IMG/VR virus record: IMGVR_UViG_3300036851_000272
Span: 1-64,000 of that record
DNA: 64,000 nt
Source of the DNA: a virus
Direction: 5' to 3' (one strand)
Positions 20,226 to 51,076 of the stretch are shown one piece after another. The position numbers were made by a program, and so were the translations under genes. The notes beneath the pieces were generated by a model. The model saw only the letters and a list, made by a program, of their open reading frames with translations. It made no database searches and had not been told where the DNA came from. Each line of letters opens with the position of its first letter. The first letter of the stretch is position 1.

Positions 20226-21509
20226 TTACGACTGGTAATCGGTGACGTTGTAGAGTTTCGCGTGGCGTCCACCACCGGCAAGCCCGGAAGCTGAAGATGG
20301 ATTGGACCCGAATTTGATCTTGAAAGCGATCTCGGCGATGATCTGATCTACCTTTTTATCGTCGCCATTCTGCACCACGTCTTCCTGGAGCATGATGTTC
20401 CGGGAGCCGCCAGCGCCTTCGAGCCAGAGCATCTCGATCTCATCGAAGTCGAGTGAGAAGGCAACGCCAGCCATTCCCTGGCCAGCCGCCGAGGTGCCCG
20501 AGGTAGGTACGTAATCCTGGAGCATCCAGTCGGTGATCATCGCCCACGTGCCGTAGGGAGTCTCAACCTCCTGAATGTCCACACCGAACTTCTTCTCTCC
20601 GGGCCGGACCATGAGGAAGTTCGTTCCCCACATGTTGATCGCGGAGCGGATGCGTGGCGCGCAGACAAGCATGGCGCGCTTATTGCGGGCGTAGCGGAAA
20701 GACTGTTGGGCGAATCCGTCCAGGAAGATCTTGGGCGTCAGCACGCCGCCTGCGTTGGTAACGTTGCCGGATGCGCCGATGGCGTAATTGATGCCCATGG
20801 TCGAACGAATTGGCCGGCCATTGTCTCCTCCAGTGAGATCCTGCGATGGTTGTCCCCAGTAGAGCGCGGCGTTGAGTTGCTCCTTGAACTCGACCATCTT
20901 TTGGCGCTGAAGGCGTTTCCGCTCGTTGCCGGCATCGCCGTATTGTTTTGAAGCGATATAGGTGTTGGTCAGATCGAGGACGGCCTTGAAGATTTGCGTG
21001 TAGGTTGTTTTGTTGACCTGCGATTGATACTTTGCTGTCGGCAATACGCCACCTTCCTCATTGGCCGAGCCGATGAGGCGAAGTGCGCCATTAGCGCCGA
21101 TAGTGGCAACGGTAGACCCACCAAAGGCGCGCTTGACTGCAATGACCGTAGCGCCGATTGAAGTGACTCGAATCATTTCCGGCAACGCATTGGAGTCAAT
21201 GGCCTTGGGCACCATGAACACGTCGCCTTTTGCAAAAACAGTTCCGTCAACGACCGTCAGAGTTGTGTTCGCCACATCGTTAGTGGAAGTTGTAGATCCG
21301 TTTTGTCCCCAGCGGGCGATGTAGTCCTGCTCCAGCCATTCAATAACGGGAGTCTCGGTCTTTTGCTTGTGCTTCATCTGAAGCAAAAGCGTCAAGAGTG
21401 GTTTTTCGTTGGGCTCCAACTCCATGATCTCGTCGGTAATGTTGCGTACTAGACGATTATCGGTGGTGATGGCAGCGATTGTGCTTCTAACGCCAGTGGT
21501 TTGCGCCAT
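20226..21509 (-). CDS. major capsid protein (427 aa)
   Basis: The N-terminal arm (VRNITDEIMELEPNEKPLL) and the following PVIEWLEQDYIARW resemble capsid proteins of the DUF5309 / SU10-like HK97-fold type. Gene order portal, scaffold-like, capsid supports the call. A long helix lies around residues 180-215 (spine-like), and NAGGVLTPK (252-260) and VETPYGTWAMITD (315-327) are in the C-terminal half. Two other genes in the window match parts of this protein (see 30947-31360 and 28412-28843). Confidence 0.85.
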   Translation of the reverse strand: MAQTTGVRSTIAAITTDNRLVRNITDEIMELEPNEKPLLTLLLQMKHKQKTETPVIEWLEQDYIARWGQNGSTTSTNDVANTTLTVVDGTVFAKGDVFMVPKAIDSNALPEMIRVTSIGATVIAVKRAFGGSTVATIGANGALRLIGSANEEGGVLPTAKYQSQVNKTTYTQIFKAVLDLTNTYIASKQYGDAGNERKRLQRQKMVEFKEQLNAALYWGQPSQDLTGGDNGRPIRSTMGINYAIGASGNVTNAGGVLTPKIFLDGFAQQSFRYARNKRAMLVCAPRIRSAINMWGTNFLMVRPGEKKFGVDIQEVETPYGTWAMITDWMLQDYVPTSGTSAAGQGMAGVAFSLDFDEIEMLWLEGAGGSRNIMLQEDVVQNGDDKKVDQIIAEIAFKIKFGSNPSSASGLAGGGRHAKLYNVTDYQS

Positions 21510-25988: not shown

Positions 25989-26732
25989 TCAATATCTTGG
26001 AATCGGAAGGTTGTTAGCCCGCAAGTGGGCCAGATACGCTTCGACGGCGGGTCCGCCCGCGCGCAACGCCGCCCTGAATTGGCTTTCGGATGCCATCGGC
26101 GTACCCGGCTGGCTGAATGATCCGCCGGATCGCGTGATAAATTGCCCCGGACTGCCTGGAAGCGCTACGTATCCCTCACCTGCCGGAGAGAATGGGCGTC
26201 CGTACGCATGCTGAAAATTCCCCGCGAAGTCGTTGGGATTGCCGGTATGTGTCTGCCCGGGGAACTGGTTCGGATCGTTCGCTCCCATCGCGGCGTACCG
26301 TGGGTCATATGGCGCTACAGCGGTGTTCGCTCCACCTGTAGGTCCAAAATCCTGGGCGTTCACCTGGGGTGCGTTCACGGATGGAGCGGTCGCGTAGGTT
26401 TGCGAATAGTAGTTCGGTGGAACGGGAGTGGGCTGCGGCCAATTCGGAGATTGGCCGGCGGAGTCAGGAATCCCAGGCGATGCCGCGGCCTGGCTGTTGT
26501 CCGCATTGAATTGTGGTGGCCCCCCGGGTAATCCAAGGCTCTGAAATGGCTGATTAGTGCCGCTAAATTCAAAGCTCCCCGGTTGAGCCGATGGAGTATC
26601 CTGCTGGCTACCAGCGGTTCGCGGGCGAGGAGCGTTGGGGTTATTGCTGGAGATGCGTTGCGGCGCTTGCCATGGGCGGCCTGATCGCAGCGTCCCGTAG
26701 CCGTAAACTTCACTGGGCATTCTAGGCTGCAC
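25989..26732 (-). CDS. low-complexity Pro/Gln/Gly-rich structural protein (247 aa)
   Basis: Start set at GTG 26732 because GAGGAG lies 7 bases before it; ATGs at 26753 and 26720 are alternatives without a good RBS. The protein is mostly disordered (Pro, Gln, Asn, Gly, Ser); residues about 180-245 look structured (YGRPFSPAGEGYVALPGS then ESQFRAALRAGGPAVEAYLA). It overlaps the end of the terminase nuclease gene. Function unknown. Confidence 0.65.
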   Translation of the reverse strand: MQPRMPSEVYGYGTLRSGRPWQAPQRISSNNPNAPRPRTAGSQQDTPSAQPGSFEFSGTNQPFQSLGLPGGPPQFNADNSQAAASPGIPDSAGQSPNWPQPTPVPPNYYSQTYATAPSVNAPQVNAQDFGPTGGANTAVAPYDPRYAAMGANDPNQFPGQTHTGNPNDFAGNFQHAYGRPFSPAGEGYVALPGSPGQFITRSGGSFSQPGTPMASESQFRAALRAGGPAVEAYLAHLRANNLPIPRY

Positions 26733-27708
26733 GTTGGTACTCCTCTGTGGCATGGCGTTCGTAGTAGACGAGGTTCGGACTAGTGGCGAGATAGCGGAGA
26801 AGGTCAAGCATGTGGCAGCGCGCCTCGACGCCTTCCTGTTTGAGTTCGCGCTCTTCGTTCATCCGCTTGGTGATTTTGTAGCGGTAGCTGAAAAATTCCA
26901 GGATCGTTTCAATACAGCGGTCGGAGATGTGCAGCCGCGTCCAGTTGCCCTTGAGATCGTGCTTGCGGGGGCGAAGCAGTTCCCTGACGGCGTCCTCACC
27001 CGCGCGGTGGCTTTTGTATGGGTCGCTGCATTCGATGCCATAGCGGTTGTAGCGCTCGGCGTAAGACTCCTCCACCTGGTTCTCGCCGGAGGCGCGGAAC
27101 GCTTTGCCTGCCTGGTCCATGAACCGCTCCATGATTTTCTCGCCGTCCGGCTTGCGACGGTAGATCCCGTAGCCGTCTGAAGTTGTGTCGCCATGCCACT
27201 CGATCTGATTGCCTTCCATGTGGGCGATCATCTCGACGTACTGGCCGACAAAGAATTCATTTTCTTCATCCCGGTCGGTCAATTGCTTGCGCTTGCCGTA
27301 GATCTTCGATTCCCAATTCTCCCGGTAGATGTACAAATCATTCCACGCATCTACGCCTATCCACATAAAGGCATGTGGAGTGCGGGGGTGCGGATCGATT
27401 GCCATGTAGCGGCACATACGCTTGGGGATCCGGTCGTGGCCGATGACGTGAACTTTGGGATCGAACGTTGGATAGACGCGCTGGCCGCTGAGTGCGTCGT
27501 AGTCAATCTCCATCTCGCGGCGAAAGAGAGCTTGGTTCGTATAACGTTTGCGTTCCAGTTCCAGCCGCTCTTCCGTCATCGTGGGATCGGCGGTGTAGTG
27601 CAGCCACACGACAGCGGCGCCGGTTTCGGGCGCGCGGCGGAGCATAACGCCGGGGCACGGGGTGGCAACGTCAAAATTGACGGGATCAAGGTAGCTGACA
27701 AGGCTCAT
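26722..27708 (-). CDS. terminase large subunit, nuclease half (328 aa)
   Basis: This is a stand-alone RNase H-fold terminase nuclease. The start region (VVWLHYTADP, REMEIDYDALSGQRVYP) matches the linker following the ATPase domain in large terminases. The three metal-binding acids are visible: RYMAIDPHP (D105), WHGDTTSDGYG (D174) and RCHMLDLLRYLA (D302). The ATPase half is a separate gene 1.4 kb upstream, with three genes between. It would cut concatemeric DNA during packaging, presumably by associating with the ATPase protein. Confidence 0.85.
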   Translation of the reverse strand: MSLVSYLDPVNFDVATPCPGVMLRRAPETGAAVVWLHYTADPTMTEERLELERKRYTNQALFRREMEIDYDALSGQRVYPTFDPKVHVIGHDRIPKRMCRYMAIDPHPRTPHAFMWIGVDAWNDLYIYRENWESKIYGKRKQLTDRDEENEFFVGQYVEMIAHMEGNQIEWHGDTTSDGYGIYRRKPDGEKIMERFMDQAGKAFRASGENQVEESYAERYNRYGIECSDPYKSHRAGEDAVRELLRPRKHDLKGNWTRLHISDRCIETILEFFSYRYKITKRMNEERELKQEGVEARCHMLDLLRYLATSPNLVYYERHATEEYQRAA

Positions 27709-28415
27709 TGAATCGCCAGCCTCATCTCTTGAAGCTCTTGGGACATGACAGCCGGGAATCCGCGCTCCCTGCGAAACGCCAGCAGGGCCTCACCGTATTC
27801 ATAGCGCTCCGGCGCGTTCTGCCGCTGGTACACTTCATCCACTTCGGCGGCGCTGCCGGGGGTCGTCGGATGCTCGTGGCGGAACATGATGTGTGGTGCG
27901 TTTACCACCACGCCGTCGGCTTCCGCGTGCTCAGTGAATTCGGCGTCGGAGTACATGCTCACATAGGAAGGGTGGAAGAGGTAGCCGATCTGCTCGTACC
28001 GGACGCGGTTCAGGATCTGGATGGTCAACAGGCCGCTGTGATCGGCGCTGCCGCCTGTCGAGACGCGCACCACGCAAGGCTTGTCGCCCCAGAGTTCCGG
28101 AATCTTGCGCAACGCCCAGTCCCACTCGTGGCAGGGGTAGATATCGTCGCTGATGACTACCAGCACGTGGCCAACGGCGCCCAGGGCAGCAACGTTGGTG
28201 GCATCGACCGAACATTTTGCCCAGTAATTCCACACAATTCGCGAGATCCCGTATTCGCTACGGTTTGGCACACATGTGCCATAGTCGAGAGCAACCACAT
28301 GCTCGATGCTCAGCGTCCCCGACGCCGCTTCCAGCCATTTGTCACGCGTCTTTGGCCACACCTCGGGCCGAGCCGACGGGTGGCAGAGCGAAAAGTCCGG
28401 GCGGGCAAGCTTCAT
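27705..28415 (-). CDS. glycosyltransferase-like protein inside the split terminase (236 aa)
   Basis: GT-A-like: ATNVAALGAVGHVLVVISDD (metal-binding Asp pair, about residues 72-91), then YPCHEWDWALRKIPELWG, and late conserved-looking SMYSDAEFTEHAEADG and FRHEHP. It resembles family-2 type enzymes and is a distant sibling of the glycosyltransferase at 18931-19758. ATGA overlaps on both sides tie it to the terminase transcript. Donor and acceptor unknown. Confidence 0.7.
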   Translation of the reverse strand: MKLARPDFSLCHPSARPEVWPKTRDKWLEAASGTLSIEHVVALDYGTCVPNRSEYGISRIVWNYWAKCSVDATNVAALGAVGHVLVVISDDIYPCHEWDWALRKIPELWGDKPCVVRVSTGGSADHSGLLTIQILNRVRYEQIGYLFHPSYVSMYSDAEFTEHAEADGVVVNAPHIMFRHEHPTTPGSAAEVDEVYQRQNAPERYEYGEALLAFRRERGFPAVMSQELQEMRLAIQ

Positions 28416-28843
28416 GTGTGATTAAGCAATCCTGCGCCCCAAAGTTTTGTGCAGGCCGGACAGAGCGCTGTCACAGGGAACAGGCATTGGTAGTCCTGCA
28501 TGTTGATCAGCTTCCCGGTTACTATTCCGTCAGGGGTAACGCTTAGGGCGCTCGTGCGCATATGCTCTTTAACGTCCGGTTCAGCGAACTTCTCGACCTG
28601 CGTCATCCAGACGCCGAACGGTGTAGTGATCTGGAGGTCATTCTCAACAAGATCAATCTGGAAAGGGGTTTCAGAACTACGCCGCCACTCAAAAAGAGCG
28701 GTTATCAGCGGAGGACTGCATTTCAGAATCTGTCGCGGCACCTCATCGAAGGAAACTATCTGGGCAAACCAGCCCATCATCTTTGGTGTCAAGATGCCGC
28801 CTGCATTCATAATCATCGGGTTGGCGATTTGCTCTGCCGTCAT
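28412..28843 (-). CDS. capsid-homologous C-terminal fragment protein (143 aa)
   Basis: Residues 13-80 align by eye with residues 252-324 of this phage's major capsid: NAGGILTPK against NAGGVLTPK, and QITTPFGVWM against EVETPYGTWAM with similar spacing. After that it diverges and ends with a Cys pair (LCPACTKLWG). It has its own start (AAGGAA upstream) and coupled stop, so it looks expressed. Whether it is a functional minor capsid-like protein or a relic of a second capsid gene is unclear. Confidence 0.75.
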   Translation of the reverse strand: MTAEQIANPMIMNAGGILTPKMMGWFAQIVSFDEVPRQILKCSPPLITALFEWRRSSETPFQIDLVENDLQITTPFGVWMTQVEKFAEPDVKEHMRTSALSVTPDGIVTGKLINMQDYQCLFPVTALCPACTKLWGAGLLNHT

Positions 28844-28905
28844 CTCTTATTTGTTTCCTTCAAGATAGGCTCGATTGGCGCAAGTTTTCCCCGGGGTGAA
28901 CGGCT

Positions 28906-29091
28906 TCATGGTGTTATTGCGCGATCGCGCACAATCAAACATTCTTCGATGGAGGAGCGCTCATCCACGGGTATCGAGGCTGCCGACACTAAATCCTCAC
29001 AGCCGGATTGATCTTCGGCGACATATCGGCGTTCGAAACCAACAGCGCGCTTAACAGCCTTGCCGCTTGGACAGTACAGTGTTGGATTCAC
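28906..29091 (-). CDS. small Cys-containing protein (61 aa)
   Basis: GTG start at 29091 overlaps the stop of the terminase ATPase gene (GTGA) and has AAGGAG 7 bases upstream; a longer frame exists but lies under the terminase gene. The protein begins VNPTLYCPSGKAVKRAVG and has three Cys. Unknown function; the first gene of the insertion that separates the terminase halves. Confidence 0.6.
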   Translation of the reverse strand: MNPTLYCPSGKAVKRAVGFERRYVAEDQSGCEDLVSAASIPVDERSSIEECLIVRDRAITP

Positions 29092-29828
29092 GCCGCTCTC
29101 TCCTTTGCCACAGGCCAATCACACGGCAGCGCGCTTTCCGTCGCCGTACGAAACCAGCCGGGGTACGCCGAACTCAGCGCCACGAGGTGCAGCGGCTTGG
29201 CGGCCAGCATAGTGTTGAAAATCTCCTCGCCGGCATCCATAAACGCCGCTTCGTCCATCACGAACGCCGTGGGGTGGAGCGACCGCGATTTATTCGGCTC
29301 GCCGGACAGGCCGACGCACCGGGACCCGTTCTCCATCTCGAAGTTGTCGTAAGCCTGCTCGAATGGAGGGACGCCGCGGCGGGTAGGCCAGCGGGCCTTC
29401 AACGCCGGGAGCGACTGATCGTACAGAGTTTTCACGTACTTGACATCGGTAAGCGCTTTATCCCGGTCCTGCGATTGAAAGACGAGCAATGTGGCGGGCC
29501 GGGTGAACATCATGTGAGCGAATATTGCCGAGACCAGCCAGGAGGCCATCATGGTACGGGACTTCTCTATAAAGAGGATGGGCTCAGCCATGATCAGGTC
29601 CATGATCGGCTGGAAATAGGGACGGTTCGGGAACGGCTTGTACGGGCTTACTCCCGGTGTTTTTTCCTGCTCGTCTACCGTTTTTGTGCAATTCATCAGC
29701 CAGAACAGCGGATCTTTGACCGCTCTCCGCGCATCCTTCTCCTCCAGCAACATCAATAACTCGGCGTCCTGCTGGGATTTGAAGGCCGCGTTGCTGGGCG
29801 TGCTCGATGATCTTGCGGTCGATCTCAT
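29088..29828 (-). CDS. terminase large subunit, ATPase half (up to 246 aa)
   Basis: Packaging ATPase: Walker A variant IEKSRTMMASW (about 87-97), Walker B TAFVMDEAAFMD (187-198) and the coupling motif LVALSSAYPGWF (215-226). It stops shortly after, where a normal large terminase would continue into the nuclease. The exact start is uncertain: ATG 29828 has a weak RBS and lies far inside the small-subunit frame; TTG 29756 or ATG 29753, just before LLEEKDARRAVKDPLFW, are better by homology. It powers DNA translocation into the head. Confidence 0.85.
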   Translation of the reverse strand: MRSTARSSSTPSNAAFKSQQDAELLMLLEEKDARRAVKDPLFWLMNCTKTVDEQEKTPGVSPYKPFPNRPYFQPIMDLIMAEPILFIEKSRTMMASWLVSAIFAHMMFTRPATLLVFQSQDRDKALTDVKYVKTLYDQSLPALKARWPTRRGVPPFEQAYDNFEMENGSRCVGLSGEPNKSRSLHPTAFVMDEAAFMDAGEEIFNTMLAAKPLHLVALSSAYPGWFRTATESALPCDWPVAKERAA

Positions 29829-30306
29829 CTTCGGAGAGTGTCGTGATTTGCACGCGGTGGTCGATATTCACTTCCACCTGGTCCGGCGCCGCCATGCCGT
29901 GCCATTCTGATGCCAGCTTTGCGAATTGCGCAATGGCCTTCCAGTCGTATTTTTTGTGAACGACCGGATTTCCGGCCTTGTCGAACAGATGGCCTTTTTT
30001 GCCCTTCAGGACTTCTTCGTCCTGTGCATCCAGCCCTTCGTTGACGCGCTGGATCACGCGAGCCATAGTCAGCCCAAGCATGTTGGCTTGCTTCTGAGCC
30101 TGCGTCTCGTACGCATCCCGTAGTGCTTGTTTGAAGTTGGTGGCTTCGGTTGCTACCCACTCGCAAACATGCTTGGGACTGAGTTCGTATTTCTTGCAAG
30201 TCTTGTTTACCCATCGATCCCACGCCGCCCCCTGGCCTGGCCGGTCGTCGTAGTGATCTTGAAGAACAAGCGCTCGAACACGTTCCGTGGCGTCCTGAGA
30301 CATCAC
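29584..30306 (-). CDS. terminase small subunit-like protein (up to 240 aa)
   Basis: Position just before the ATPase and the helical DNA-binding-type sequence (KKYELSPKHVCEWVATEATN, then MARVIQRVNEGLDAQ, then KYDWKAIAQFAKLASEWHG) fit a small terminase. The last 80 codons overlap the ATPase gene in another frame and read like out-of-frame coding sequence, so the true product may be shorter, or a programmed +1 shift may exist. The start overlaps the upstream zinc-protein stop (ATGA). Confidence 0.7.
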   Translation of the reverse strand: MMSQDATERVRALVLQDHYDDRPGQGAAWDRWVNKTCKKYELSPKHVCEWVATEATNFKQALRDAYETQAQKQANMLGLTMARVIQRVNEGLDAQDEEVLKGKKGHLFDKAGNPVVHKKYDWKAIAQFAKLASEWHGMAAPDQVEVNIDHRVQITTLSEDEIDRKIIEHAQQRGLQIPAGRRVIDVAGGEGCAESGQRSAVLADELHKNGRRAGKNTGSKPVQAVPEPSLFPADHGPDHG

Positions 30307-30599
30307 CCGAACCAGGGGTTACCTTTGACATTTTCCTTGGGGCGATAGTTGGCTTCGAGTGTCCAGCAGCCCTTGTCGGAATCCAGCCCAACTATCTTTT
30401 CACCTTCAGGCCCGACATAGTACCCACACCACTTGCACATCCATCGGCGCACCTTGCGCTTATCGTCGCCGTCCAGCCAGCCACCATGGGGCTTCCAAGT
30501 GCCGACGGCAGCACACTTGGGACACCGCAGCCGGTCCCGCATACCGATCAACCGGATGAAGTCGAAGAAGCAATGCTTTAGTGTCAACGAGAACGTCAT
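30303..30599 (-). CDS. zinc-ribbon protein (98 aa)
   Basis: Two Cys pairs, LRCPKCAAVG (about residue 26) and WMCKWCGYYVG (about 56), form a zinc ribbon, followed by a Trp/Asn tail (ANYRPKENVKGNPWFG). It directly precedes the terminase small subunit and is coupled to it (ATGA), so a DNA-related packaging role is plausible but unproven. Confidence 0.75.
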   Translation of the reverse strand: MTFSLTLKHCFFDFIRLIGMRDRLRCPKCAAVGTWKPHGGWLDGDDKRKVRRWMCKWCGYYVGPEGEKIVGLDSDKGCWTLEANYRPKENVKGNPWFG

Positions 30600-30602
30600 G
30601 CT

Positions 30603-30950
30603 TTATCCGAACATCCGCTCATCGGAGGGACCGGCCGCCATGCGCTCGGGATTCATCGCCTTCGGCGCATCCTCGCGGTCGAAGTCATCACAGACGTCGG
30701 AAATCGTGACAGGGTAGCCGCCGTGGAGACCGCACTTGCGCGCGGCGTAGTGCTCGCAGGAGCCGCAACTCTCGGTGGAGCTTCGCGCAGAGCGCAGGTT
30801 TGGAGGCTTGTCGCCCTCAGGCGCTGCTGTCTTCTCTTCCGCCAGTTCGGCGTCTTCCATGCGTCGGCGCAGAGTCTTGTGATTGGGACCGGCGATGTAG
30901 CCGCCGTTCTTCTTGCTGCGCTCGTAGACGGTGGTGACTTGCTGTCTCAT
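30603..30950 (-). CDS. Cys-cluster small protein (115 aa)
   Basis: ATG at 30950 overlaps the upstream stop (ATGA); longer forms run under that gene. Basic N-terminus (VYERSKKNGGYIAGPNHKTL) suggesting nucleic-acid binding, then a Cys cluster SCGSCEHYAARKCGLHGG ... DVCDDFD, a pattern seen in many small phage proteins. Function unknown. Confidence 0.65.
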   Translation of the reverse strand: MRQQVTTVYERSKKNGGYIAGPNHKTLRRRMEDAELAEEKTAAPEGDKPPNLRSARSSTESCGSCEHYAARKCGLHGGYPVTISDVCDDFDREDAPKAMNPERMAAGPSDERMFG

Positions 30951-31360
30951 TGTTCGACTCCGCCCAAAGCTTCGTTTCCGATGTAACGCAAGGCAGCTCC
31001 CACAGACAGGTGCGGCCAAGCGTTATCCCCAATGCGCCGCAGCTTGACGTAATCTCCGTAAGTTTCCACCGCACGGAGCAGATCGGGAGGCCGCATGTCC
31101 ATGATGGGACGCGGGACTATAAACACGTCGCCTATTTTCATGAGCGATGGATCGCTGAGTGCGTAAGTGTCTCCCGACATAACGCTTTTTACTTCTGCCC
31201 AGCGAGAAATGTAATCCTCTTCGTGCCACTCAATCAGGGGCGATTTCTCGCTTCGCTTTGGACCTGCCGGCAAAATCTGCGCGGCAGAGAGAACCTTTGC
31301 CTTAACGGCAATTCCAGCTCCGCAAAGCGCGGCAAACCAAGATCGGCGCGATAATTTCAT
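30947..31360 (-). CDS. capsid-homologous N-terminal fragment with Tat-like leader (137 aa)
   Basis: Residues 40-137 align by eye with residues 53-157 of the major capsid: SPLIEWHEEDYISRW against TPVIEWLEQDYIARW, IGDVFIVPR against KGDVFMVPK, and GAALRYIGNEALGGVE against GALRLIGSANEEGGVL. The capsid N-arm is replaced by a leader KLSRRSWFAALCGAGIAVKA, with twin Arg followed by a hydrophobic stretch, resembling a Tat signal. Start and stop are coupled to neighbours (ATGA). It may be exported or membrane-held; function unknown. Confidence 0.75.
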   Translation of the reverse strand: MKLSRRSWFAALCGAGIAVKAKVLSAAQILPAGPKRSEKSPLIEWHEEDYISRWAEVKSVMSGDTYALSDPSLMKIGDVFIVPRPIMDMRPPDLLRAVETYGDYVKLRRIGDNAWPHLSVGAALRYIGNEALGGVEQ

Positions 31361-32040
31361 GCAACCTCCTGTTTCACGGCACAGCGCCGAAGGACGGTGA
31401 GGCCGTTGTTATTTTCGTAGTGGTGCTCAAGCTCCCAGCCGTTGCCAATCAGCTCCTCGATGGGCTTCCAGATGCCCTCGCCGCCGTCGTCCCCCACCTT
31501 GCCATTGGTCACAGTGTCGTGGAAAATAACATGGCCGGTACAGCGGTGCAGATGCGCGGCAAGCTCGGCGCGGACGTGTTTCTCGTTGTGGAGCGTATCG
31601 ACAAATAGAATGTCAAACCCCATTGAGCCAGGCGCGGAATAACAAGAATCCTGCCTGGAAGCTATCCAGTGATCGCTTTCGATCTTTTTCAGTCCCTCGT
31701 TCAGATGGCTCCAATCGATGTCCACCGATATCAGCAGTGCAGGCTTAGCGGCCAGAAACGCTGAAGTGCTCTTTCCCTCGCGAACGCCAAGTTCCAAGAT
31801 CCGGCAGTTTTTGTAAGACTCCGCGATCCGTCGCAACGTCGGCAGGTGCTCGTGGATATCGCAATAGCCAGGCGGATTGCAGAACTGCTCATAGATCTGC
31901 TCGATAGTCATGGATGCTACGGCTGTCAATTGGACCCCTCCGCGCCACCGAAGACTGTGGCCATGCAGATTGCCTTCAGAATCGCGAATCACCGGCATAC
32001 CCGAAGCCATAAGATGAACCGCTAAAGATTCTGAAATCAC
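31357..32040 (-). CDS. class I SAM-dependent methyltransferase (227 aa)
   Basis: Start at GTG 32040, which overlaps the upstream stop (GTGA) and follows GAGGGG. Rossmann SAM-binding loop: RILELGVREGKSTSAFLA (motif I), LISVDIDWSH (motif II acid), then FDILFVDTLHNEKHVRAELAAH and VIFHDTVT. This is the Methyltransf_24 / CmcI-like small-molecule or sugar methyltransferase pattern. With two glycosyltransferases in the same operon it may methylate a glycan (inferred). Confidence 0.8.
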   Translation of the reverse strand: MISESLAVHLMASGMPVIRDSEGNLHGHSLRWRGGVQLTAVASMTIEQIYEQFCNPPGYCDIHEHLPTLRRIAESYKNCRILELGVREGKSTSAFLAAKPALLISVDIDWSHLNEGLKKIESDHWIASRQDSCYSAPGSMGFDILFVDTLHNEKHVRAELAAHLHRCTGHVIFHDTVTNGKVGDDGGEGIWKPIEELIGNGWELEHHYENNNGLTVLRRCAVKQEVA

Positions 32041-32369
32041 TCCGACCCCTCTATCCCGCCAAGCGCGTAGCACACATGTCCCGATGGCAGCATTTGCTCC
32101 TTGCACTGCCCGTAGTCCTGCGGCAGCAGTGGCACCGAGTGCGCCGAGAGCCCCCGCAGGTACGCGCGCCGGATGCGTTTCGCCCGCCGCGTCTCCACCA
32201 AATCGAAGTGTTGCGCATTCGCGCGCACCACCTCGTGATCGGCGAATCCGTAAAGCTTTGGCTCAGAGTTTGAGTCGGCCGTTTTAGGCCAGTAGATGGG
32301 AACTTGTTGATTTTCCAAGGAGGGATGCGGGGATAAGGTAAGTCGCCCCGGCGACTGCGGGATGTTCAA
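32037..32369 (-). CDS. first gene of the late operon, unknown (110 aa)
   Basis: Only start in frame is TTG 32369, without a clear RBS and only 4 bases after the proposed -10 box, so the true start is uncertain. The body (VPIYWPKTADS, YGFADHEVVRANAQHFDLVE, then RRAKRIRRAYLRGLSAHSVP) is a soluble, basic protein. Coupled to the methyltransferase (GTGA). Not recognised. Confidence 0.6.
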   Translation of the reverse strand: MNIPQSPGRLTLSPHPSLENQQVPIYWPKTADSNSEPKLYGFADHEVVRANAQHFDLVETRRAKRIRRAYLRGLSAHSVPLLPQDYGQCKEQMLPSGHVCYALGGIEGSE

Positions 32370-37517: not shown

Positions 37518-37691
37518 GTGAAATGGGGTACTTTGGGATACTTTTTACCCCAAAGTATCCCAAAACCGAGTACCCCAAAATTGACAAACGCATGGGCGCT
37601 GAGTGACACGGCGTTCATGCTTCCCCGAATCGAAGGCGCTTCGGAGGGACGCTCCCGCATTTACCCCGAATCGAAGGGGACTGATCGATAG
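37518..37691 (+). CDS. possible leader ORF over a giant hairpin (57 aa)
   Basis: GTG with GGAGGGGAGAGA just upstream; begins VKWGTLGYFLPQSIPKPSTP. The coding sequence runs through the large hairpin at 37525-37576, so translation would melt it, and it ends in the first repeat module before the next gene. Plausible leader peptide, but chance remains possible. Confidence 0.3.
   Translation: MKWGTLGYFLPQSIPKPSTPKLTNAWALSDTAFMLPRIEGASEGRSRIYPESKGTDR
37525..37576 (+). promoter_or_regulatory. 20-bp nested stem-loop in the mRNA leader
   Basis: GGGGTAC + TTTGGGATACTTT on the left pairs with AAAGTATCCCAAA + GTACCCC on the right, interrupted only by a 5-base bulge and closed by a 7-base loop. It is the strongest hairpin I found in the window. 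Attenuator, processing site or terminator followed by AAAATTG; no proper T-run. Confidence 0.65.
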
Positions 37692-37700
37692 AAAGGAAAA
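37664..37700 (+). repeat. hairpin-RBS module, copy 1
   Basis: CCCCGAATCGAAGGGG (4-bp stem, 8-base loop), then ACTGATCGATAGAAAGGA and the start codon of the next gene. A partial, damaged copy (CCCCGAATCGAAGGCGC) lies at about 37623. Confidence 0.75.
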
Positions 37701-38536: not shown

Positions 38537-38575
38537 CCCCAATACGAAGGGGACTGATCGATAGAAAGGATTTTT
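38537..38575 (+). repeat. hairpin-RBS module, copy 2
   Basis: CCCCAATACGAAGGGG, then ACTGATCGATAGAAAGGA and the next ATG. Near identical to copies 1 and 3. Confidence 0.75.
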
Positions 38576-38884: not shown

Positions 38885-38927
38885 CCCCGAATCGAAGGGG
38901 ACTGATCGCAAAAGGAGAAACACTACT
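38885..38927 (+). repeat. hairpin-RBS module, copy 3
   Basis: CCCCGAATCGAAGGGG, then ACTGATCGCAAAAGGAGAAA and the next ATG. The loop equals copy 1; the RBS half differs slightly. Confidence 0.75.
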
Positions 38928-39600: not shown

Positions 39601-40064
39601 TCGAAGCGGCACCGGGCTCGGGCAGGTTTTATGTGTTCGACGGTTCTGAAGCCAACACGGGCCAGAACCACGAAGGCCCGATGTTTAAGTTCGCTGCGCA
39701 GGCGTGGCGCGAGAAGAACTTTCAGCCGCATCCTCACGCCGGAGATCCGGTTTTCGTGAAGATCTCGTGGCGAGCCGTCGAGAAACGCGGATGGGCAGCG
39801 CACCGCCCAAAGATCGCGCCGGAGATCCGTGTGTCGCCTCTCAAAAGTGCGTATCTCACGGGCGATCTGGAGCGTCCTCTGGACGACATCATACTCACGA
39901 CCGAACAGCCCGCGCACAATGCGTGCATGCGACTCGGCGAATCGCTCTGGTTGGCGCTCGTGATCGATGAACCAGTCGAGAAGTATGAGCCGCTGGATGC
40001 AAACGATATCAATCGCCTGCTGTCGCCAGAGGCGATCTGGAATCCAGCGGTAGGCGAAGCATGA
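39555..40064 (+). CDS. unknown protein upstream of integrase A (169 aa)
   Basis: GGAGAAG before the ATG; begins MQHFIGRWAVDHGMLIEAAP. Contains RVSPLKSAYLTGDLERPLDD and a C-terminal acidic helix. Its stop overlaps the integrase start (ATGA), so the two are coupled. No family recognised. Confidence 0.65.
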   Translation: MQHFIGRWAVDHGMLIEAAPGSGRFYVFDGSEANTGQNHEGPMFKFAAQAWREKNFQPHPHAGDPVFVKISWRAVEKRGWAAHRPKIAPEIRVSPLKSAYLTGDLERPLDDIILTTEQPAHNACMRLGESLWLALVIDEPVEKYEPLDANDINRLLSPEAIWNPAVGEA

Positions 40065-40957
40065 CAGCCCTCGCGCCTCTCCCCTCGATCGAAACGCGGC
40101 TGATCGCGCTCGTCTGTGATGCTGTATCAAGCCCAGCCAGCAAGCGCGCGTACAAAGCGTGCCTAGGCACGTTCCTCGGCTTCTGCAAGGCTCAGGGGCA
40201 CGCGCTCAACCGGGAGGCTGTCCAGGCCTACCGGAGCCATCTCGAAGCGTTGGGGAAGCGCGGAGCCACGATAAACCAGCATCTGGCGGCCATAAAGGCG
40301 TTTGCAAAAGAGGCGAAGTTTGCCGGAGCCATCACCGCTGAGGAGTTTGAGGGGATTCGCGAGGTGAAATCCATCCCGATCCGCGGCCAACATTGCGGCG
40401 TCTGGCTGGACAAAGACCAAATGCTCGAGCTGCTCGCGGCGCCGGATCAAGCCACGCTAATCGGCCGGCGCGATTTCGTTCTGTTAAGCATCCTGCTGGG
40501 TGCCGGGTTGCGCCGAACGGAAGCCGTGGGGCTCGCCTGCGATCAGATTCAGACGAGAGACGGCGTGCTCTGCATCGTCAACTGCCTCGGGAAAGGCAAG
40601 AGACTGCGTTCCGTGCCCCTCCCCCGGTTCTGCTGGCAGGCTGTGCGCCAGTGGATAGTGGAGATAGGCGGCAGTGGCCCGCTCCTACGCTCGATTAACC
40701 GCTTCGGCGAGATCAACGGAAGCCTCGACGATGACAGCGTGCGGTATATCGTCGTGGGGTACGCTAAACGCTTGGGGTTCGAAGGGCTTGCGCCGCACAG
40801 TTGCCGGAGAAGTTACGCCCATGCCTGCCTCAAAGGTGGGGCTGATCTTAACGAAATCCGCCTCGCGCTCGGCCACTCTTCACTGAGCACGACCACCAGA
40901 TACATGGGCGATGGGCTCAATCTGAAGGATTCGATTGCGGAGAAACTGGGGTTGTAG
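40061..40957 (+). CDS. tyrosine recombinase A (298 aa)
   Basis: Complete tyrosine recombinase: N-terminal SAM-like core-binding domain (about 10-100) and catalytic residues R151 (GAGLRRTE), K around 178-180 (LGKGKR), H246-x-x-R249 (PHSCRRSY), H272 (LGHSS) and Y281 (TTTRYMGDG). It lacks the AP2-type arm-binding domain of integrase B, so it looks more Xer- or transposon-like. May act as phage integrase, resolvase or in a switch. Coupled to the upstream gene. Confidence 0.9.
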   Translation: MTALAPLPSIETRLIALVCDAVSSPASKRAYKACLGTFLGFCKAQGHALNREAVQAYRSHLEALGKRGATINQHLAAIKAFAKEAKFAGAITAEEFEGIREVKSIPIRGQHCGVWLDKDQMLELLAAPDQATLIGRRDFVLLSILLGAGLRRTEAVGLACDQIQTRDGVLCIVNCLGKGKRLRSVPLPRFCWQAVRQWIVEIGGSGPLLRSINRFGEINGSLDDDSVRYIVVGYAKRLGFEGLAPHSCRRSYAHACLKGGADLNEIRLALGHSSLSTTTRYMGDGLNLKDSIAEKLGL

Positions 40958-46272: not shown

Positions 46273-46682
46273 GTCTTCGGCTCCTCCTTTGCGAGCTTGC
46301 GCAGCCACACCCCAAGCCCAAATGCGGTTGAATATTTAGGTTGGTCCTCGCCAGTGGTAAATGTTGGGATTTCTCCTAAGCGCTCCGCCGCCTCCAGCAG
46401 CGCGGTCTTGCGAACCTCGGCATCATGCGTGGCCAAAGCGCCAACATGATCGCGGAGCGCTGCATCTGCGATACATTGCGGACATTGGCAGGTATTGTGT
46501 GGACAGCGCCCCCGACTTTTAATGTCGAGATCCTTCATCGTGCGCAACGCCAACTCCAGGGCAGCCGCGCGGTTCTCGGCAGCTTCGATCTCAGCGGCCA
46601 ACGCCTCGATGAGCGGCAATTTTGCTTTAGTGTGGATATGCGCCTCGAACAACTCGCGGACTCGCTCAATCGCGGATTTCAT
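46269..46682 (-). CDS. repeat-family protein, intact copy (137 aa)
   Basis: Start at ATG 46682, with GGAGG 6 bases upstream. Begins MKSAIERVRELFEAHIHTKA, contains a Cys cluster (RCPHNTCQCPQCI) and ends LRKLAKEEPKT. A damaged relative lies at 47525-47664 with the same start and end. Unknown function. Confidence 0.65.
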   Translation of the reverse strand: MKSAIERVRELFEAHIHTKAKLPLIEALAAEIEAAENRAAALELALRTMKDLDIKSRGRCPHNTCQCPQCIADAALRDHVGALATHDAEVRKTALLEAAERLGEIPTFTTGEDQPKYSTAFGLGVWLRKLAKEEPKT

Positions 46683-46818
46683 CGTCATCCTCCAGTTCGC
46701 CAGCATAATCCACGGTGTCGAAGTGCTCGGCTATGTGGCATCGACAGGCGCAATCCTGGTACGTACAAGAGCCGCAACAGCGGTCTGCACATTCGGGGCT
46801 GACGGTGTTTCTATTCAT
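46666..46818 (-). CDS. Cys-rich small protein (50 aa)
   Basis: ATG 46818 overlaps the upstream stop (ATGA). ECADRCCGSCTYQDCACRCH has seven Cys and is surely metal-binding; the end GELEDDDEIRD is repeated in DNA after the gene at 47697. Unknown. Confidence 0.6.
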   Translation of the reverse strand: MNRNTVSPECADRCCGSCTYQDCACRCHIAEHFDTVDYAGELEDDDEIRD

Positions 46819-47532: not shown

Positions 47533-47664
47533 TCGGCTCCTCCTCTGCGAGTTCGCGTAGCCACGCTTCTCGGCAGCTTCGATCTCATCCGCCAGCGCCA
47601 GATGAAGTGAGCAGGCCATGTTCGTCTTGAAGATCTCGCGGACTCGCTCAATCGCGGATTTCAT
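47525..47664 (-). pseudogene. internally deleted relative of the 46269 gene
   Basis: Starts MKSAIERVREIFKTNMACSL (compare MKSAIERVRELFEAH) and carries the same GGAGGATGACG RBS and EIEAAEKR; the next bases match, in another frame, the end of the intact copy (WLRELAEEEPNA against WLRKLAKEEPKT). A deletion of the middle with frame loss explains this. It now fuses in frame with the following gene. Confidence 0.65.
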
Positions 47665-47696
47665 CGTCATCCTCCAGTTCGTCAGTTTCCTCGGCC

Positions 47697-49743: not shown

Positions 49744-49946
49744 ACCATTCCAGCCTTTGCTTCTATCGCAAGCACGGAAATTCGCCACGACTCACGGCCA
49801 GTGGCTACGGTGATCGAGGCGACCGGAAAGCCGTGGCTATCCATCAAGGCGCAATACCTTACCTGCCCGTCAGTGACGCAGCGTTGATAGCAGCGCCATG
49901 CCATCCAAATAAACTTTAGATCGTTAAGTAAGCCCAGCTTCGTCAC
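49740..49946 (-). CDS. small protein (68 aa)
   Basis: GTG 49946 overlaps the integrase B stop (GTGA) with GGGAGGAG upstream. Begins VTKLGLLNDLKFIWMAWRCY. Unknown. Confidence 0.6.
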   Translation of the reverse strand: MTKLGLLNDLKFIWMAWRCYQRCVTDGQVRYCALMDSHGFPVASITVATGRESWRISVLAIEAKAGMV

Positions 49947-51076
49947 TTCTTTCTCCTCCCGATCAAATCCGCCCAAGTCCCCGCCGCCTTGTCGTTATCG
50001 GACGGCAACGCATGCGCGTAGATCTTGAGCGTGGTGTACGGATCGCAGTGCCCCAGGCGCTCGCTGACAACAGGAATCGGCGTACCGTTCGCGATCAGCA
50101 AAGAGCCGTGCGAGTGTCGAAGTATATGGAGCCCGACATGCGGCAGCTTCAGCTTGCGCCCCAACTCCAGCACTACCTTACTCAGGTAGTTCGGTCCCAC
50201 GTAGCCGCCATCCGGTCGCGCGAAGATCAGATCCATCCGCTTGTAATCCGCACCGAACATCGCTGCCTGTTGCTCCTGCGTCTGCCGATGCATCCGCAGC
50301 ACTTCGATGGTCGCCGGATCCAGCTTGATCGGCTTCCGGTCGTCGTTGCCTTCCTTCGTGCTCTTCTCAGCGATGCCCTTCCCGGTTACCACGATGGCTC
50401 TGTGAATGCGGATCGTGCCAGCCATCCAATCGAGATCGGCCCATCGCAGAGCCAGCAGTTCACCGCGTCTGGCGCCGGTTGCTGCGGCTAGGCGAATCAC
50501 GGGCCCAAACCACCGGCCGTCTGCCGCCCGCATGTACTCGTTCACCTGATCCGGCTCGAGCGCGCCCTTCGCTGGTTTACGCACTTTCGGCAACTCGCAG
50601 CCAGCAGCCGGATTAAACGGAATCAGCTTCCGGCGAACCGCGACGGCGAGCGCGGCATGGATGCAGCCGTGGATGTTGTGGACCGTCTTCGCGCTCAGAT
50701 CGGATTCCTTGCGGGCCTCCAGGTACGCTTCCTCCAACGCAACCGCCGTGAGGTCGTAAAGCTTCGTGCTGCCGAGTCGCGAGGTCACGTGGCGCACGGC
50801 TCCCGAATAGGCCGCGAATGTAGTGGGCGACCGGTCCGGCTCAATCTTGTGCTTCAGCCACCACTCGATAAATTCGGCAAGCGTGGCGTCGCTGTTCTTC
50901 ACAGCTTGGTTTGCGCGGAGCCGGTTTACCTGCTGGTTCACCCAATCCTCGGCTTCGCGCTTCTTTGCGAACCCGGCTTGGCTCAGACGCTCGCGTTTCT
51001 TGCCGGGGAGTTCCACTTGCCCGCGCCAGCGCTTGCCGCCCCCCTTGAGTTTGTAGGCGAAAACGGTGCCTCTCAT
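49943..51076 (-). CDS. int: phage integrase B, tyrosine recombinase (377 aa)
   Basis: AP2-like arm-binding N-terminus (KRWRGQVELPGKKRERLSQA), core-binding domain (65-160) and catalytic residues R203/204 (GARRGEL), K241 (STKEGND), H317-x-x-R320 (HILRHSH), H343 (LGH) and Y353 (LKIYAHALP). Full length for a temperate phage integrase. Neighbours: coupled to the gene before, an excisionase-like gene 0.4 kb upstream and an attP-like element 0.5 kb downstream. Good candidate for lysogenic integration. Confidence 0.95.
   Translation of the reverse strand: MRGTVFAYKLKGGGKRWRGQVELPGKKRERLSQAGFAKKREAEDWVNQQVNRLRANQAVKNSDATLAEFIEWWLKHKIEPDRSPTTFAAYSGAVRHVTSRLGSTKLYDLTAVALEEAYLEARKESDLSAKTVHNIHGCIHAALAVAVRRKLIPFNPAAGCELPKVRKPAKGALEPDQVNEYMRAADGRWFGPVIRLAAATGARRGELLALRWADLDWMAGTIRIHRAIVVTGKGIAEKSTKEGNDDRKPIKLDPATIEVLRMHRQTQEQQAAMFGADYKRMDLIFARPDGGYVGPNYLSKVVLELGRKLKLPHVGLHILRHSHGSLLIANGTPIPVVSERLGHCDPYTTLKIYAHALPSDNDKAAGTWADLIGRRKK

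Follow-up and report, generated by a model that had tools for sequence, protein, structure and literature searches.

Two genes homologous to separate parts of the major capsid protein in the head and packaging region of an SU10-type phage

Introduction

Why should a phage carry, in addition to the gene for its major capsid protein (MCP), two further genes that each resemble a different part of that same protein, and are these genes capsid debris or proteins with a role of their own? The question is raised by two reading frames in the 64,000-nucleotide stretch analyzed here (the window), which comprises bases 1-64000 of the 68,421-bp (68.4-kb) IMG/VR record IMGVR_UViG_3300036851_000272. The ends of the record have an exact 127-bp direct repeat in common, so the phage genome is probably complete. 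The phage is probably temperate, since two tyrosine integrases (40061-40957 and 49943-51076, on opposite strands) are encoded together with an excisionase-like HTH gene. The structural genes are carried on the minus strand. The early region also contains a 141-bp direct repeat (46563-46703 and 47559-47685, ~77% identity), and near-identical short repeats of 24-34 bp that adjoin gene starts or ends are located at 37664-37697, 38537-38570 and 38885-38908.

The MCP and the two genes in question, termed N-like and C-like herein, are encoded as follows, and both of the latter reading frames are present where the initial annotation had placed them:

20226..21509, minus strand: MCP, 427 aa, SU10_MCP family (PF17236, 2.9e-36)
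30947..31360, minus strand: N-like gene, 137 aa, a 34-aa leader and a domain homologous to MCP 48-155 by sequence alignment
28412..28843, minus strand: C-like gene, 143 aa, with homology to MCP 246-322 over residues 7-79 by sequence alignment, and a tail after these

Homology of the two proteins to the capsid protein

The MCP is a clear member of the SU10_MCP family (PF17236; 125.9 bits against a cut-off of 24.1), although it is only about 22-25% identical to its aligned homologs, and with even its MCP so divergent the phage is nearly an orphan. Matches of the two smaller proteins to MCP residues ~53-157 and ~252-324 had been noted by eye, and alignment substantiates both. The N-like protein aligns with MCP residues 48-155 with 36 of 109 identities (33%; BLASTP E=5e-15) and the C-like protein with residues 246-322 with 26 of 81 (32%; E=8e-11). 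Their Smith-Waterman scores of 134 and 103, respectively, compare with maxima of 55 and 53 among 2000 shuffled sequences each, so that 0/2000 shuffles reach the score of either fragment. The record is metagenomic and no close relatives of the phage were found, which gives chance similarity or an assembly artefact some foothold, but with such E-values and shuffle results, clean gene junctions and frames, and terminal repeats at the ends of the record, this explanation is extremely improbable.

SU10-type MCPs have an HK97 fold with an N-arm, P-domain, E-loop and A-domain (PMC9509320), and the nearest solved relative by sequence of the MCP studied here is the capsid protein of Vibrio phage VP1 (PDB 9in6). 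The predicted (AlphaFold) model of the MCP is poor (pLDDT 36) and is usable for mapping at the level of secondary structure only, where residues 67-147 contain six strands, 162-217 a pair of long helices, and 259-327 a helix-strand-helix-two-strand unit. From the order of strands and helices in this model, we infer that the N-like protein is the counterpart of the MCP E-loop barrel, and the order of elements likewise suggests that the C-like protein corresponds to a core segment of the A-domain (axial domain). The model predicted for the N-like protein is confident over residues 51-131 (pLDDT block means of 78-88) and its capsid part is predicted to be a six-stranded barrel whose strands follow the order of those in MCP 67-147, an agreement that is not independent as the model was built from an alignment containing the MCP. 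A Foldseek search of this model against 350,542 PDB chains gave the SU10-type MCP 9in6_M as the top match (E=3.9e-3), with unrelated small barrels ranked close behind and unrelated ATPases at E ~1e-2. The top match is consistent with homology to the MCP but is by itself no proof, since small beta-barrels are common and the MCP sequence contributed to the model.

Neither protein unites in a single chain the N-arm, E-loop, spine helix/P-domain and A-domain of an HK97-fold capsid subunit, and both are without the N-arm, the spine and most of the P-domain. Their homology to the phage's own MCP is that expected of capsid-derived accessory paralogs. Neither matches the SU10_MCP model (PF17236) at E<=1; they score weakly against an SU10_MCP-type profile only once the phage's own MCP is included. 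No match to Pfam or NCBIfam was found for either protein.

Copies and relatives

When each fragment and the complete MCP were searched against all six frames of the whole record, only the MCP, N-like and C-like loci were recovered. The spine region, which the initial annotation had reported as missing from both fragments, has no second copy or remnant outside the MCP gene anywhere in the record at E<=10. Beyond the record, neither protein has a match among 50,697 phage records or any similarity to known defense families. Scans of IMG/VR for exact peptides of the N-like protein, the C-like protein, the MCP and the putative portal gave no relatives, and looser MCP and fragment patterns together with degenerate DNA patterns, run against contigs of IMG/VR and GTDB, matched a single distant MCP (28%) and nothing related to the fragments. 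Among eight SU10-type phages used for comparison, no MCP fragments are present within the ~16-20 kb stretches around the MCP, and each whole record yields one MCP with the SU10_MCP family model. The finding is thus based on one genome, and retention of the fragments over the long term is seen in no ortholog.

Gene context and the divided terminase

The N-like gene is upstream of the terminase block, between a gene for a methyltransferase-like protein and a small Cys-rich gene, and the C-like gene is within the block. The surrounding genes are:

31357..32106, minus strand: methyltransferase-like protein (Methyltransf_24, 2.2e-6), with a 4-nt overlap with the N-like start
29584..30306, minus strand: putative TerS, assigned by position only, with a 245 bp overlap with the TerL-N reading frame
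29088..29828, minus strand: ATPase half of TerL (TerL-N; phrog_2, 7.7e-5)
28906..29091, minus strand: small ORF of 61 aa with a GTG start overlapping the TerL-N stop and a weak coding signal
28847..28909, minus strand: ORF of 20 aa, its start overlapping the stop of the 61-aa ORF
27705..28415, minus strand: glycosyltransferase-like protein (phrog_14945, 2e-8), its start overlapping the C-like stop
26722..27708, minus strand: nuclease half of TerL (phrog_6672, 1.2e-4)

The initial annotation had described the terminase block as interrupted, and the C-like gene indeed lies between the ATPase and nuclease halves of TerL. Together the two halves comprise 574 aa and are colinear with intact TerLs of ~420-550 aa, the ATPase half ending after the coupling motif. 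They are separated by a 1.38-kb stretch with four ORFs (the 61-aa ORF, the 20-aa ORF, the C-like gene and the glycosyltransferase-like gene), and from this location the C-like gene belongs to an inserted cassette. An intron was considered as the cause of the split and rejected, as there was no Rfam match and no known intron family was detected; the divided TerL may represent a packaging motor that is split by nature or one that has been disrupted. In the overlap of TerS and TerL-N (29584-29828), the codon signal favors the TerL frame from about TerL residue 17 on, and this overlap suggests an earlier end of TerS, an unusual overlap, or a frameshift. A perfect 14-nt palindrome, TGCGCGATCGCGCA, is located at 28918-28931 within the 61-aa ORF just upstream of the C-like gene.

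Clean ribosome-binding sites or ATGA coupling had been attributed to both fragment genes. This holds for the N-like gene, which has an AGGAGG ribosome-binding site and is joined to the gene on either side by a 4-nt ATGA overlap, but only in part for the C-like gene, which has a weak site of its own (AAGGA ~12 nt upstream), starts 3 nt after the 20-aa ORF, and has one 4-nt overlap, that of its stop with the start of the glycosyltransferase-like gene. A resemblance between the start of the C-like protein and that of the protein encoded after the MCP was dismissed as chance, as it was tied with that of an unrelated gene pair.

Maintained genes or remnants of a broken capsid gene

The initial annotation considered the two genes to be expressed rather than decayed, and intact frames, codon usage and codon-position constraint all support maintained coding genes over debris. 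In both genes the codon-usage signal is the strongest of the six frames in the annotated frame and usage is phage-like. In protein-guided alignments with the MCP, identities at codon positions 1, 2 and 3 are 0.50, 0.57 and 0.32 for N-like and 0.47, 0.55 and 0.29 for C-like, where chance third-position identity is 0.25-0.28 and where the alignment procedure raises identity at positions 1 and 2 to some extent without being able to reduce it at position 3. Simulated neutral decay to equal protein identity gave ~0.6 at all three positions, with the third never below 0.41-0.46. As position 3 is near chance while positions 1 and 2 are conserved, synonymous sites are saturated and the proteins were constrained for most of their divergence. 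Neither gene therefore has the equal divergence at the three positions or the disrupted frames of a decaying pseudogene. The open frames are in themselves supportive but weak, as copies decaying neutrally still lacked stops in 8.5% and 12.8% of cases, which is why the codon-position test carries the weight. Judged from these sequence comparisons, long neutral decay is excluded for both genes, though a gene that had kept its function until a short time ago and was then truncated would give the same picture.

Such recent breakage by recombination, of a second full-length capsid gene that was duplicated or acquired from another phage, would leave the two genes as functionless remnants. It would explain why they represent two separate, non-overlapping segments, in colinear order, of a single protein. 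The terminase block around them has itself undergone rearrangement, and the constraint on codon positions could have been inherited from a time when the gene was full-length. The tail of the C-like protein also points this way, with KLINMQDYQ weakly resembling the MCP C-terminus KLYNVTDYQ over nine residues (shuffle p ~0.015); if this match is real, the C-like protein originated from a larger C-terminal part of the MCP. However, no spine or other remnant is present at E<=10, both frames are intact, the gene junctions are compact, and the resemblance to the wider family argues otherwise for the N-like protein. Compared with eight other SU10-type MCPs, the E-loop segment of the MCP has a mean z of 8.4 but the N-like protein only 0.5, when a recently working capsid gene should have kept this resemblance. 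Hence the N-like protein looks like an old, repurposed duplicate of the MCP of this lineage under different constraint. The same test is uninformative for the C-like protein (1.3, versus 1.8 for the matching MCP segment) as that segment is itself weakly conserved, and a concentration of fragment identities at family-conserved sites was tested for and the enrichment was not significant. On balance, recent breakage is unlikely.

Possible functions of the two proteins

The initial annotation had suggested minor capsid components, size-control factors, decoys, or proteins interfering with the capsids of other phages. We tentatively propose that the N-like and C-like genes are MCP-derived, single-sub-domain genes that are kept as accessory modulators of capsid assembly, the reading we favor although we would put it at somewhat less than an even chance. 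A duplicate of the lineage's own MCP would have given rise to both genes and been reduced to single sub-domains, the E-loop beta-barrel in N-like and the axial (A) domain core in C-like, both retained as protein-coding genes of the head/packaging operon. Their operon position suggests that they would be expressed late, alongside the head genes. In the assembled capsid the E-loop of an MCP subunit contacts the neighboring subunit and the A-domain is at the center of the capsomer. Given the place of the two genes among late head genes and their mimicry of these two MCP-MCP contact surfaces, binding to the MCP or to capsomers at E-loop or A-domain contacts seems the most likely activity, and we hold this with moderate to low confidence. 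By such binding they may modulate lattice growth, completion of the vertex or portal site, or maturation, taking part in assembly as accessory factors and not as subunits of the shell.

The leader of the N-like protein does not sit easily with a role in assembly, as its Tat-like SRRSWF motif would suggest a membrane or exported location. Both proteins might have left capsid biology, N-like as an exported or membrane-anchored barrel protein and C-like as a small protein of the zinc-binding type. The N-like leader is moderately hydrophobic (maximum hydropathy of 1.73 over 13 residues) with a helix predicted at low confidence at residues 6-26, and the C-like tail, with Cys119, Cys127 and Cys130, contains a CxxC motif and is missing from the MCP. 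Yet two lysines break the hydrophobic stretch of the leader, nothing similar to it occurs in the 50,697 phage records, and the lack of Pfam or NCBIfam matches also speaks against a departure of this kind, which we regard as improbable.

Just as improbable, in our view, is that the free domains serve as decoys or in interference, occupying a capsid sensor of the host but leaving it untriggered, or poisoning the capsids of competing phages. Bacterial immunity is known to be triggered by major capsid proteins (CapRel-SJ46; PMC9712102), a capsid homolog can redirect the assembly of another phage (Ccm; PMC8569155), and for a temperate phage interference during superinfection could pay. Nevertheless, the position in a late packaging operon suggests expression once MCP synthesis has begun, similarity to any known defense protein is absent, and a domain mimic could equally trigger the sensor.

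Relation to known capsid paralogs and implications

As candidate accessory modulators of assembly, the two proteins can be compared with several known systems. The SU10-type MCPs (PF17236; SU10 gp9, PMC9509320; VP1, 9in6) include the MCP of this phage, from which both fragments derive, but each fragment represents one sub-domain and neither matches the family model. The T4 vertex protein gp24 is similarly paralogous to the MCP of its own phage and is thought to stem from duplication and divergence (PMC9958956), but it has a full HK97 fold and replaces the MCP at vertices, whereas neither fragment can serve as a shell subunit. Ccm of SaPIbov5 is likewise an MCP homolog and alters assembly by joining the lattice (PMC8569155), but it is near full-length, satellite-encoded and occupies pentamers, in contrast to the single, phage-encoded domains described here. 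TcaP and Sid are external capsid scaffolds, small accessory proteins that act on coat-protein assembly (PMC10945586); with no sequence link shown here they may be functional analogs, although they are satellite-encoded and not described as derived from MCP domains, while the fragments are phage-encoded and MCP-derived.

In the open-access literature searched there is no case of single-domain pieces of a phage's own MCP as separate genes. To our knowledge, capsid-domain mimics are not known as a class from phages. That free-standing copies of the E-loop barrel and the A-domain are dedicated regulators or decoys of capsid assembly is, in our view, rather unlikely. Full-length capsid paralogs and satellite-encoded redirectors of capsids are already known, but if single-domain genes derived from a phage's own MCP are kept in its packaging operon, HK97-fold domains would be recyclable as small regulators or decoys, and the two proteins would provide a simple probe of how E-loop and A-domain contacts control assembly, which may also connect to the sensing of capsids by bacterial immunity.
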